A DNA stretch of 64,000 nucleotides from contig CAIMFV010000061.1 in assembly GCA_903840435.1 (NCBI GenBank), positions 62,001 to 126,000 of the forward strand. Direction: 5' to 3'. The notes under the pieces are model-generated. The model was not told where the DNA came from, did no database searches, and worked only from the letters and a program-made list of their open reading frames with translations. Below are positions 59,556-64,000 of the stretch, piece by piece (the stretch's first letter is position 1; every line of letters starts with the position of its first letter). This DNA is from an uncultured Caulobacterales bacterium (GTDB lineage: Bacteria; Pseudomonadota; Alphaproteobacteria; Caulobacterales; Caulobacteraceae). The position numbers and the translations under genes were made by a program.

Positions 59556-59614
59556 GCCCATTCCCGGTGTTCGATTATGTGTGCGAGTGTGAGAGCGTTC
59601 GTGAAGGGGGCAAG

Positions 59615-61093
59615 GTGACGGCTAGCGGTCCTGATGACAAGGCTGACCTTCGCCTTCTCTTGAGCCAAATCGCGCGCGAGATGGATCGTATTGGTCCGAC
59701 AGCCGAAACCTTGACGGCCAAGGCAGATCTCTTGGTGCAATTAGGCGAACCCGACGCGGCACGGTTGGCCTATCTGGCCGCACTGCAGATCGATGAGACC
59801 CACCTTTTCGCCTTGAATAATTTTGGCGCCTTGGCGGAAGCGGGCGGTTTTATATCCGCCGCGACAACACTCTATGCGCAAGCCGCCAACGCCCACCCGA
59901 AGGATGCTGCCTCGAAGGTCAATTTGGCTTCCGCCCTCCTCCGTCTGGGGCAATTAGACGCAGCAGAGGCGACGCTCGATCAGGCGCTGGCGGCAGATCC
60001 CCACTTCGCGCCCGCCCATCGTGCCCGGGCCCGGCTTTTGTCGCGTCAAGGCGAGGCGCGCCTCGCGCGCGAGAGCCTCAAATGCGGCTTTGCAGATCAG
60101 GCGGTCTTTCCGCCAACCGATGGCCGTCCGCCGTCCGGGCGCCCTCGAGTGTTGAAATTGATTTCCGGACTTGAGGCCGACACCCCGCTTGACCCGATCC
60201 TCGACCCCGACCGCTTCCAAGTCACCGCCCTTGCAGCGGAATTTTTTGACCTCAACTCCCCGCCCCCGCCTCATGACGTGATTTGGAACGCCATTGCAGA
60301 AGCTGACCTCTGTGCGGAAGGCCTCAGCGCAGCACAAACCTGTTTGGAGGCGTGGGGCGCGGTGGCGATCAATCCGCCAGAAAAAGTGCGCCTCACCGGG
60401 AGGTGCGAGACGGCGCAAAGGCTCGGTGCGTTGGTCGGTGTTGTGACCGCGCCCATCCTCGCCCTAACGAAGCCCGACCTGCTCGCTGGACCGGCCAACC
60501 CTTGCCTGCTCAAGCTCGGGGAAACTGGCAGCCGCCTGTCCTTTCCCTTAGCCATCCGCACGCGCGGACTCCATTTCGGTCAGGCCTTTGAGCGCGTCGA
60601 AACCGCCGATGAGCTTATCCAGACGGTTGCGCGCCTCCCCGGTGACGACCTTTTTGTCATGGCCTTCCTAGACACCCGAGGGGAAGACGGCCTTTACCGG
60701 AAATACCGCATGATGAGCGTCGCCGGGCAGCTCTTGCCAGTGCATTTGGCCAGGTCCCGGCACTGGAAGGTGCACCTCGCCAATGCCGAGGAAAGCGCCG
60801 GCGAGGCTCATGCACGAGAAGAGGAGCGGTTTTTGACCGACCCCGCCGCCGCCCTCGGTCAACCGGCCTTCGAGGCGTTGCGGCGCATTCAAGCGGCGGT
60901 CAGTTTGGACTATTTCGGCATGGATTTCGCTTTAACCCCCTCGGGCCAGGTGGTGCTGTTTGAGGCCAATGCCGCCATGGCAGTCCCGCTGACCGGAAAT
61001 GCGCCGAGAGACGAAGCCGCGCGCCTCATTCAGGCTGCTGCTCGCCAGATGATCCACGGGCGGCGGCAATCCGACCTAAGGCCATCGCGGTAA
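59615..61093 (+). CDS. TPR-repeat protein with ATP-grasp-like C-terminal domain (copy 1)
   Basis: A 492-residue cytoplasmic-type protein. Residues about 25-150 hold three to four tetratricopeptide-like repeats ([58 protein letters not shown]). The C-terminal 270 residues have an ATP-grasp-like end: [47 protein letters not shown], the pattern of acidic and asparagine metal-binding residues. I chose the GTG at 59615 because GAAGGGGG precedes it; the frame starts earlier at 59567. The convergent gene at 61026-62762 is a paralogue, and the last 68 bases of both overlap. Function unknown; an amide-forming ligase is the likely class. Confidence 0.75.
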
Positions 61094-62762
61094 AAGCAGC
61101 GCGGATTTTTGGTGTCGCGACGTGCTTGTAAGCGAAGAGGTCGGCAGGTTCGTCGAGGTGCAGCAGGAAGGAGGCATTCGCTTCGAACAGCACCACCTCG
61201 CCGTTGGCCAAAAGCGCGCAGTCGACGCCGCCATAGTCGAGGTCAAGACGGCGGGCGACCTGTTCAATCGCCTGGGAGGCCAAAGGTCCGAAGACGCCGC
61301 GCCAGTCGGCCAGAAAGCGCGCCTCCTCTTGCCGCTTCCAGTCATGGCGCGCAGGTTCTGAGCGCCAATAATGGGCGATCCAATGATCACAAATGGCGAG
61401 GTGGTAAGGGAACACCTGTCGGTCGACGAAGATCAGCCGATATTTGCGCCAATATCCGTCTGGAGACTGGAAATTGACGAACTCAGTCACCACGGCCGTC
61501 TCAGTTTCCAATTCCGAGAGCGCGTGGACGCATTCCTCGTCGGTATTTACGAGCGTCAGATGGTCGCCGCCATGATCGCCGGCCGGGCGCACGAGGCGTG
61601 CGCCGCTCATCGGAACATCGCCACATTCAGCCCGATCAGAAGCCGCACGACACACCCGCGCCACCGCCGGAACCTTCAGACCTTCAATGTCGCCAAACAG
61701 GGTTTGGGCCAGATCGCGGCGGGAGGGAAAAAGCGCCTCCGACGGATTGAGCACGGGCCGCGCCAACCTTTGGCAAAGCGCGCTGCAGGCCTCGATCTGC
61801 CCCCCGGCAAGATCAACCTCTGAGAGCGTCGGAAAGACCAAATCCGCCTGCGCCAAATCGGCCAGATCCACACCGCCCAGGGGGGCATCGGGTTGGTCAG
61901 GAGAGACCATGTCGAGCGACCAGATGTCGAACTGCGTGGGGTCGACAAGGTAGCGCGTTTGCAAACGCGCCGCGCCGACGCCGCCGATTAACAAGATGAC
62001 GGGCTTCTCCTTGCTGGACTTAGCGACCACCCGCGACAGCCCCTTTTCCCGCGCCAGGTGGTTTTGCAGGTGTTGGGAATCTTCGATGCGGCCAAGGGCG
62101 AGCAAGAGGCCCGCCGCTTCTTCGATCACGTCCCGGGTCGGAGTTTGACAGGCGCGCACTTCGGCTAAGGCCGCTTCGATCCGCGCGCGCGCCTTGGTCT
62201 TGATCGCCGCCTGAGCCAGCCAGACCAAGCTGCGAATTCGATCCTCAAGGGCGTCAGAGGGCAGACGCGCCAAAGCCGCAAGTTGGGCTTCCGCCGCCTC
62301 CGCATAGAGCCCAAGATCGGCGAGCACGACACCGCGATTGGCGTGGGCCGGACCGAAGCTAGGGTCAAGGGCAATGGCGGCGTTCAACCGGATCAAGGCG
62401 TCTTGCGAATTGCCCTGTCGGTGTAAGGCGACGCCCCAATCATTTTGCAGCGGCGCCAATTGCGGCAAGAGCGCTGCAGCCGCTTGAAACGCCGCAATGG
62501 CGGCTGCGACTTCGCCTCGCCCGGCGAGGATGCGCCCCAGGGCATGACGCGCACCACCATGGTCTGGCTTTTGGGCCAGCGCGCGGCGAAGCAGAGCTTC
62601 CGCCTCCTCGACCTCCGGTCCACCGGCCAGCAACAGGCCCAGCATGGCCAGGGTCTCAGCATGATCCGGCGCAAGGCCCAGATGCTGGCGATAGAGGGCC
62701 TCAGCGGCCTTCGCCTTGCCTAAAGCATGCTGCTGCAAGGCTTGGGAAAAGACGCTCCTCAA
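61026..62762 (-). CDS. TPR-repeat protein with ATP-grasp-like C-terminal domain (copy 2)
   Basis: A 578-residue paralogue of the convergent gene, with a longer repeat region: about six tetratricopeptide-like repeats in residues 1-225 (AAEALYRQHLGLAPDHAETLAMLGLLL, GARHALGRILAGRGEVAAAIAAFQAA). The C-terminal half shares YWRKYRLIFVDRQVFPYHLAICDHWIAHY and [25 protein letters not shown] with copy 1. It starts at a TTG (62760-62762) that overlaps the stop of the gamma-glutamyltransferase gene as TTGA, so it is translationally coupled to it. Its 3' end overlaps that of copy 1 by 68 bases. Confidence 0.78.
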   Translation of the reverse strand: MRSVFSQALQQHALGKAKAAEALYRQHLGLAPDHAETLAMLGLLLAGGPEVEEAEALLRRALAQKPDHGGARHALGRILAGRGEVAAAIAAFQAAAALLPQLAPLQNDWGVALHRQGNSQDALIRLNAAIALDPSFGPAHANRGVVLADLGLYAEAAEAQLAALARLPSDALEDRIRSLVWLAQAAIKTKARARIEAALAEVRACQTPTRDVIEEAAGLLLALGRIEDSQHLQNHLAREKGLSRVVAKSSKEKPVILLIGGVGAARLQTRYLVDPTQFDIWSLDMVSPDQPDAPLGGVDLADLAQADLVFPTLSEVDLAGGQIEACSALCQRLARPVLNPSEALFPSRRDLAQTLFGDIEGLKVPAVARVCRAASDRAECGDVPMSGARLVRPAGDHGGDHLTLVNTDEECVHALSELETETAVVTEFVNFQSPDGYWRKYRLIFVDRQVFPYHLAICDHWIAHYWRSEPARHDWKRQEEARFLADWRGVFGPLASQAIEQVARRLDLDYGGVDCALLANGEVVLFEANASFLLHLDEPADLFAYKHVATPKIRAAFTAMALGRIAAARGSSGEQQPE

Positions 62763-64000
62763 TGGGCCAGCACCGCCACCCCGCGCGCCCGGGGATCGGC
62801 AGCTGGAATGGGCCTGTTGTCGACCACCTGGATCGCTTCGATATCCCCGTTCCAGTCCTGGTCGGCGACAGTATAGCCGAGCGCCTTTAGCTCGGCGACG
62901 AGGCTGGCGGGGAAGCGCGCAAAGGGCTCTGAGAAGATGGTGTTTTCCGGCAAAAGTTGGTGGTGGAAGCGCAGGGTTTTTAAGGCTTGGTCGAGCGGCT
63001 GATGAAAGTCGTACACATTGACCAAGACCTGGAAGACCGAGGTAAAGATGCGCGATCCGCCCGGCGTGCCGATCACCATCACCACCTTGCCGTCCTTGGT
63101 GAGCAAGGTCGGCGTCATGGAAGACAAGGGGCGCTTGTTGGGCGCGATGGCATTGGCGTCGCCGCCGACCACGCCATACATATTGGGCGCACCCGGCTTG
63201 ACCGAGAAGTCGTCCATCTCGTCATTCAAAAGAAAGCCTGCGCCTTCGACGATGACGCCCGCACCAAACCAGCCATTCAGGGTATAGGTGTTCGAAACCG
63301 CATTCCCATCGCGGTCAATGATTGAGAAATGCGTCGTCTGCGGCTTCTCAAGTCCTGGCTGCACGGAGGCGGTGGCAGAGGGCCGATCTGGATTGATCTC
63401 GCGGGCGCGCCGCGCCACATAGGCCGGGTCGATCAAGGCCTCGACCGGAACCTTCACAAAATCAGGATCGCCGAGATATTGGGCGCGATCTGCAAAGACG
63501 CGCTTTTCGATCTCAGAGATCAGATGCATGTAGCGCGGAGAATTCAGCGGTGCGTCGGCGAACAGGGCGGCTGCGTCTGCCTTCATGTTCAGCATTTGCA
63601 ACAGCGCAATCCCACCAGAGCTTGGCGGCGGCGCGGTGACCACCTCATAGTCTTTCCACTGGCCCTGAATGGGCTTGCGCCATAAGGGGCGATAGGCGGC
63701 AAGGTCTTGGCGGGTAATCAGGCCTGGATGGTCGGCTCGGGCCATCTGGGCCACGATGAGATCAGCCACCGGTCCCTGGTAAAATCCCTTGGGGCCAAGG
63801 CGGGCAATTCGGGCCAAGGTCTTGGCGAGCTCCGGTTGACGGAACTGAACGCCCTTATTCATTCCGCCGAAATAGCGCTGAAAATTGGTGGTTTTGATGA
63901 AGGGGGACTCGCTGTCCGTCTTCATATCAAACAGCTGTTCGGTGACCTTAAAGCCATGCCGGGCATAGGAAATGGCGGGAGCCAGATCCTGAGCCCAGCT
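62759..64000 (-). CDS. ggt: Gamma-glutamyltransferase (partial, N terminus beyond the window)
   Basis: Ntn-hydrolase that cleaves gamma-glutamyl bonds (for example of glutathione) in the periplasm. The visible 413 residues include KTLARIARLGPKGFYQGPVADLIV, the pre-cleavage PPPSSGGIALLQML, and QTTHFSIIDRDGNAVSNTYTLN, in which the first Thr of TTHFSII is the autoproteolysis nucleophile. LNDEMDDFSVKPGAPN and SSMTPTLL are also conserved. The frame is open to the end of the window, so the signal peptide is not seen. Followed directly by the coupled TPR/ATP-grasp gene. Confidence 0.93.
   Translation of the reverse strand, partial: SWAQDLAPAISYARHGFKVTEQLFDMKTDSESPFIKTTNFQRYFGGMNKGVQFRQPELAKTLARIARLGPKGFYQGPVADLIVAQMARADHPGLITRQDLAAYRPLWRKPIQGQWKDYEVVTAPPPSSGGIALLQMLNMKADAAALFADAPLNSPRYMHLISEIEKRVFADRAQYLGDPDFVKVPVEALIDPAYVARRAREINPDRPSATASVQPGLEKPQTTHFSIIDRDGNAVSNTYTLNGWFGAGVIVEGAGFLLNDEMDDFSVKPGAPNMYGVVGGDANAIAPNKRPLSSMTPTLLTKDGKVVMVIGTPGGSRIFTSVFQVLVNVYDFHQPLDQALKTLRFHHQLLPENTIFSEPFARFPASLVAELKALGYTVADQDWNGDIEAIQVVDNRPIPAADPRARGVAVLAH

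Follow-up and report, generated by a model that had tools for sequence, protein, structure and literature searches.

Two convergent TPR–ATP-grasp genes at the end of the window

The window (the whole 64,000-nucleotide stretch of Caulobacterales DNA analyzed here) carries, close to its end, two genes, P0001 and P0002, that face each other and share their 3' ends. The features of the locus are as follows.

59615-61093, + strand: P0001, TPR–ATP-grasp protein (GTG start, 492 aa)
59630-60088, + strand: P0001 TPR region, residues 6-158, nine helices (Pfam TPR_8 and model)
60146-61072, + strand: predicted pre-ATP-grasp and ATP-grasp domain of P0001, residues 178-486 (VIA-align to RimK)
60698-60709, + strand: P0001 RKYR motif, R362-R365, of which R, K, and R are invariant across the family
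60959-60973, + strand: P0001 FEANA, with E450 and N452 of the predicted ATP-grasp metal site
61026-61093, no strand assigned: convergent overlap of P0001 and P0002, 68 bp, including the stop codons of both genes
61026-62762, - strand: P0002, TPR–ATP-grasp protein (TTG start, stop at 61026, 578 aa)
61050-62000, - strand: predicted pre-ATP-grasp and ATP-grasp domain of P0002, residues 255-571 (AlphaFold2, VIA-align)
61173-61187, - strand: P0002 FEANA, residues 526-530, predicted metal site
61437-61448, - strand: P0002 RKYR motif, residues 439-442
62250-62729, - strand: P0002 TPR region, about residues 12-171 (Pfam TPR_16)
62759-64000, - strand: ggt, gamma-glutamyltransferase, upstream of P0002 and continuing beyond the window end

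An earlier, sequence-only reading of this DNA had described convergent reading frames sharing these 68 bases, which we reproduced exactly. The frame of P0001 stays open upstream to a second GTG at 59567, from which the protein would be 508 aa long, and the TTG start of P0002 overlaps the stop codon of ggt (566 aa when complete, as in L052:6759-8459). In BLASTP, the C-terminal halves of P0001 and P0002 share 28% identity over 279 residues (E 2e-27); by this comparison the two are distantly related paralogues, in line with the proposal that they belong to one diverged family. The TPR-like repeats that had been noticed in each protein also score above the Pfam cut-offs, with 38.1 bits against a cut-off of 25.7 for TPR_8 in P0001 and 43.0 bits against 32.7 for TPR_16 in P0002, and TPR helical hairpins are visible in the full-length model of P0001. 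GC3 is well over GC2 in both genes, as expected of coding DNA. Gene decay, of which truncated orthologues would have been a sign, was rejected because the orthologues of both genes are full-length, without internal stops, and the catalytic residues are retained. We also rejected a phage or plasmid origin: there was no phage match, and just seven plasmid records carry the family.

The C-terminal domains are predicted to adopt an ATP-grasp fold

None of the Pfam or NCBIfam ATP-grasp models scores above its cut-off against P0001 or P0002, and therefore the assignment of both proteins to this superfamily from one motif (LFEANA, which is present in both) needed testing. The RimK model (NCBIfam/Pfam) gave no match to either protein at E up to 1. 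A model of the P0002 domain, for which the input was an alignment of the C-terminal domains of 20 family members, was predicted by AlphaFold2 with a pLDDT of 88.3 and a pTM of 0.89. Foldseek retrieved 553 PDB matches to this model at E <= 0.001, headed by D-Ala-D-Ala ligases (E 5e-11), and VIA-align superimposed it on RimK (5zct) with a Z of 19.2 and an rmsd of 4.2 over 268 residues, the other top scores being those of ArgX (18.4), LysX (17.9), and glutathione synthetase (17.8). In the full-length AlphaFold2 model of P0001 (pLDDT 89.6), the TPR arm is followed by an entire ATP-grasp domain, which aligns with RimK 5zct with a Z of 20.1 (rmsd 3.9, 263 residues). The predictions support an ATP-grasp fold in both proteins, with Z values of 19-20 to RimK, and an absence of the fold, against which the earlier call could have foundered, was not found. 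Further, a search with the family profile picks up LysX at E 0.0023.

RimK, LysX, and ArgX are ATP-grasp amino-acid ligases that act on protein C termini. In the VIA-align comparisons, they have the fold closest to that of the family (Z 18-20 over 254-272 residues, rmsd about 4) and the same order of pre-ATP-grasp, ATP-grasp, metal-site Asp, and Glu-x-Asn, but they share just 11-17% identity with the family, which has an N-terminal TPR arm, carries Arg in place of both nucleotide-binding lysines, and has the TARGG stretch of LysX replaced (the LysX/ArgX substrate stretch N-T-A-R-G-G is absent from the aligned part of the family). Profile matches to the R2K, YheC/D, and sugar-transfer ATP-grasp families of Pfam were weak and incomplete; most of them covered the metal-site end, and all scored under the Pfam cut-offs.

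Sixteen alignment columns are invariant among the 20 members, including the metal-site Asp and Glu; the invariant residues include R100, R143, R190, K191, R193, H205, W212, H215, E231, D265, and E278, and D437, E450, and N452 are invariant across the full-length set. P0001 and P0002 keep every residue that is invariant in the 20 members, and both have the Asp and Glu-x-Asn predicted to bind metal in ATP-grasp enzymes. The replacement of both lysines by Arg was seen in a profile alignment to LysX, in which carbamoyl-phosphate synthetase has Arg at the second lysine position too. Carbamoyl-phosphate synthetase, an accepted ATP-grasp member, also has Arg at the first position and is active; the two lysines are usual in ATP-grasp proteins and not universal.

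A widespread family of several diverged lineages

The source genome holds five diverged family members. In one scan of species genomes from GTDB, 279 loci were recovered, and the best 79 of these 279, which were kept, come mainly from Caulobacterales, Acetobacteraceae, and Burkholderiales; within the class of the source genome, 20 of 289 genomes sampled carry a member. The TPR–ATP-grasp family is widespread in Proteobacteria, and it is without a Pfam model of its own. Its distinguishing features are the TPR arm, a characteristic residue pattern, and a copy number of up to five per genome. The sequence-only reading knew of no characterized system like it, and we found no published TPR and ATP-grasp system or function in the literature, where the amidoligase survey of Iyer et al. 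2009 may still contain a mention.

In the tree, P0001, whose branch is long (1.24), groups within a small clade of strong support (SH 100), and P0002 falls in another clade, with members from Phenylobacterium and G024. The P0002-clade genes of Phenylobacterium sit in the nusA-infB / rbfA-truB-rpsO region (L060:3730-7000, L062:553-4016, and L065:1408-10924), a nusA-infB / rbfA placement not seen in the other lineages. The Rhizobium tumorigenes member (L206:7605-9317) has an additional C-terminal stretch of about 150 residues (DDCLICALAMFSGRTY...), which, by eye, is perhaps a cysteine-peptidase-like domain.

Neighboring genes and fusions hint at amide-bond formation

A group II PLP decarboxylase adjoins a family gene at nine loci (L055, L173, L174, L189, L191, L192, L194, L200, and L059); the linked decarboxylases are of the diaminobutyrate/PanP/MfnA kind. 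At L059, the family gene is a P0001-clade member; the nine loci include that of the G015 orthologue of P0001, the only P0001 orthologue with a linked decarboxylase. On a Rhizobium tumorigenes plasmid, the decarboxylase lies two genes downstream of the family gene, and at L170:7123-9777 a single 884-aa reading frame fuses a group II PLP decarboxylase (residues 7-471) to an ATP-grasp domain (565-878). By an approximate, scripted reading of the motif (P0001 was scored FEAL, its true motif being FEAN), a decarboxylase stands next door to 8 of the 18 members with EAD or a like motif, compared with 1 of the 103 EAN members. P0001 and P0002 have no decarboxylase neighbor.

A SerC-like aminotransferase adjoins a family gene at ten Burkholderiales loci and likewise on plasmid FT54, where the family gene is annotated by PGAP as 'RimK family alpha-L-glutamate ligase' and scores 23.6 bits against the NCBIfam RimK model, the cut-off being 143.4. 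A TauD-type oxygenase, TPRs, and an ATP-grasp domain form one reading frame at L181:7670-9973; the member at L187 is similar in length to this frame. A redoxin–2OG oxygenase and an FkbH protein are encoded with members at L053, L126, and L238. Of these loci, L238 holds a P0001-clade member and additionally encodes a luciferase-like monooxygenase and a second, canonical ATP-grasp protein. At L126:590-10421, two family genes, FkbH, and redoxin-2OG are inserted with flagellin on one side and flbT/flaF-like genes on the other, and at L173 a flagellin-like gene is two genes away from the family member. The decarboxylase–ATP-grasp and TauD–TPR–ATP-grasp fusions are direct hints of the chemistry, and the genomic context points to the making of amide bonds.

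We note that five loci (L206:9352-10896, L173:4033-5829, L199:5762-7504, L238:9841-11478, and L170:5477-7255) have in common a protein of about 500-600 aa encoded beside the TPR–ATP-grasp/decarboxylase genes; the three copies scanned had no Pfam match, and the one copy searched had no sequence match in the PDB. Small peptide genes, for which the sequence-only reading had proposed a search in relatives, did not emerge: among family neighbors of 50 aa or more, there was no recurrent small ORF that could stand for the precursor-peptide gene of an ATP-grasp RiPP cluster. A gamma-glutamyl pathway, considered from the ggt neighbor of P0002, is only a hint because ggt is not beside the P0002 orthologue in G024; GGT-like genes near the members at L081, L138, and L183 are scattered.

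P0001 and P0002 are probably amide-forming ligases

We consider P0001 and P0002 to be carboxylate-amine (amide-forming), ATP-dependent ligases with a RimK/LysX-type fold and a TPR arm that most likely docks the substrate or a partner enzyme, and we give this reading a probability of about 0.62. The peptide- or amide-ligase chemistry first suggested from the sequence is thereby supported as probable, from fold and context. We infer a reaction in which ATP and Mg2+ would activate a carboxylate to an acyl-phosphate, which an amine would then attack to yield the amide; in some sub-families, the amine may be supplied by the co-encoded PLP decarboxylase or aminotransferase. Several points weigh against the ligase assignment. 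First, it is almost exclusively the EAD-motif sub-family that is associated with decarboxylases (the 8 of 18 members and the fusion), and P0001 and P0002 themselves are not. Second, the Lys-to-Arg changes are unusual among RimK-type ligases, and some proteins of ATP-grasp fold are kinases or other non-ligases (PPIP5K2, ITPK, and synapsin). Third, the docking role proposed for the TPR arm is based on analogy.

ATP-grasp ligases make many peptide-like metabolites as well as protein modifications, and identifying the substrate of this family would uncover, in common soil and water Proteobacteria, a new protein modification or else a class of amide metabolites not seen before. One narrower reading, to which we give somewhat less than even odds, is that the ligases make amides of decarboxylated or transaminated amino acids, with the TPR arm only assembling pathway enzymes. 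This would fit the decarboxylase and SerC-like neighbors, the decarboxylase and TauD fusions, the enzymes gathered around the P0001-clade gene at L238, and the overlap of P0002 with ggt, whose product cleaves gamma-glutamyl amides; however, the ggt link is not kept in G024, and five diverged copies in one genome are many for one pathway. A precedent for a decarboxylase working with an ATP-grasp ligase is the MfnA/MfnD system, a tyrosine decarboxylase and a tyramine-glutamate ATP-grasp ligase (PMC8141765), in which a PLP decarboxylase feeds an amine to an ATP-grasp ligase as we envisage for the decarboxylase-linked branch. P0001 and P0002 differ from it in having no linked decarboxylase. We know of no TPR arm in MfnA or MfnD.

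It is possible, if doubtful, that the ligases instead modify proteins, with the TPR arm binding one specific protein, which in some lineages would be flagellin, for the ATP-grasp domain to add an amine or amino acid to it, much as FlmG adds a sugar. RimK modifies the C terminus of a protein, and family genes occur amid flagellin and flbT/flaF-like genes at L126 and near a flagellin-like gene at L173. FlmG of Caulobacter, whose TPR arm binds the protein substrate of its C-terminal enzyme domain (PMC7591256), has the same plan of an N-terminal TPR arm and a C-terminal modifying domain, although that domain is a GT-B glycosyltransferase and the family's is ATP-grasp. In Shewanella, full flagellin modification needs an ATP-grasp gene (PMC3765264). 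However, flagellin linkage was seen at only two loci, neither of them near P0001/P0002, and most loci have no recurrent protein partner. That the family performs a previously undescribed posttranslational modification, in which the TPR arm would pick the target protein (again, flagellin for some lineages) and an amine from a dedicated decarboxylase or aminotransferase would be coupled to it by the ATP-grasp domain, we think unlikely.

A non-ligase ATP-grasp enzyme such as a kinase, or a catalytically inactive scaffold, is improbable: PPIP5K2, ITPK, and synapsin are among the structural matches of the P0002 domain (VIA-align), both nucleotide lysines are replaced, and P0001 is on a long branch, but both genes retain the D, E, and N of the metal site along with every column that is invariant in the family, and active carbamoyl-phosphate synthetase has Arg at these places too.

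The overlap is incidental, and the adjacency of the two genes may be meaningful

The 68 bp encode residues 472-492 of P0001 and 557-578 of P0002, that is, part of the last helix and the tail of each protein, and each protein extends about 8-10 residues beyond the end point of its orthologues. Stop-to-stop frames in this stretch are 35-80 codons long, and therefore one lost stop easily yields such tails. In G024, the orthologues of P0001 and P0002 are about 2.4 Mb apart, and those of G363 are on two different contigs that each hold no other family gene, so that these closest orthologues do not share the overlap; the members found in five same-genus genomes are all from other clades. Among the genomes seen, the overlap therefore occurs in the source genome alone, and we rejected it as a conserved or functional feature because the orthologues stand apart and the tails that overlap are extensions. 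The meaning that had been read into the overlap is not supported; it is ordinary and incidental, with the last few codons of either gene reaching into the 3' end of its neighbor.

At about ten loci, two family genes are direct neighbors or have one or two genes between them; most of these pairs are co-directional, and in several the genes overlap by 4 nt (ATGA). At L068 the pair is joined by a divergent third copy. Another family member adjoins 4 of the 14 observed P0001-clade members, which were assigned to the clade by the tree (7) or by similarity (7). The chance that 2 of 5 family genes are adjacent is near 0.6% (about 10 pairs x 2/3400, assuming about one gene per kb). These observations would favor P0001 and P0002 being an obligate pair, as a heteromer or in consecutive steps, with the convergent overlap coupling or balancing their expression. 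We nevertheless hold such a pair to be quite unlikely: the orthologues are far apart in G024 and on separate contigs in G363, the other pairs are mostly co-directional with partners from differing clades, and the overlap lies mostly within tails missing from orthologues. Unlike the overlap, the fact that P0001 and P0002 are neighbors may carry meaning, because pairs recur at about ten loci and include 4 of the 14 P0001-clade members, and a functional partnership of the two is plausible.
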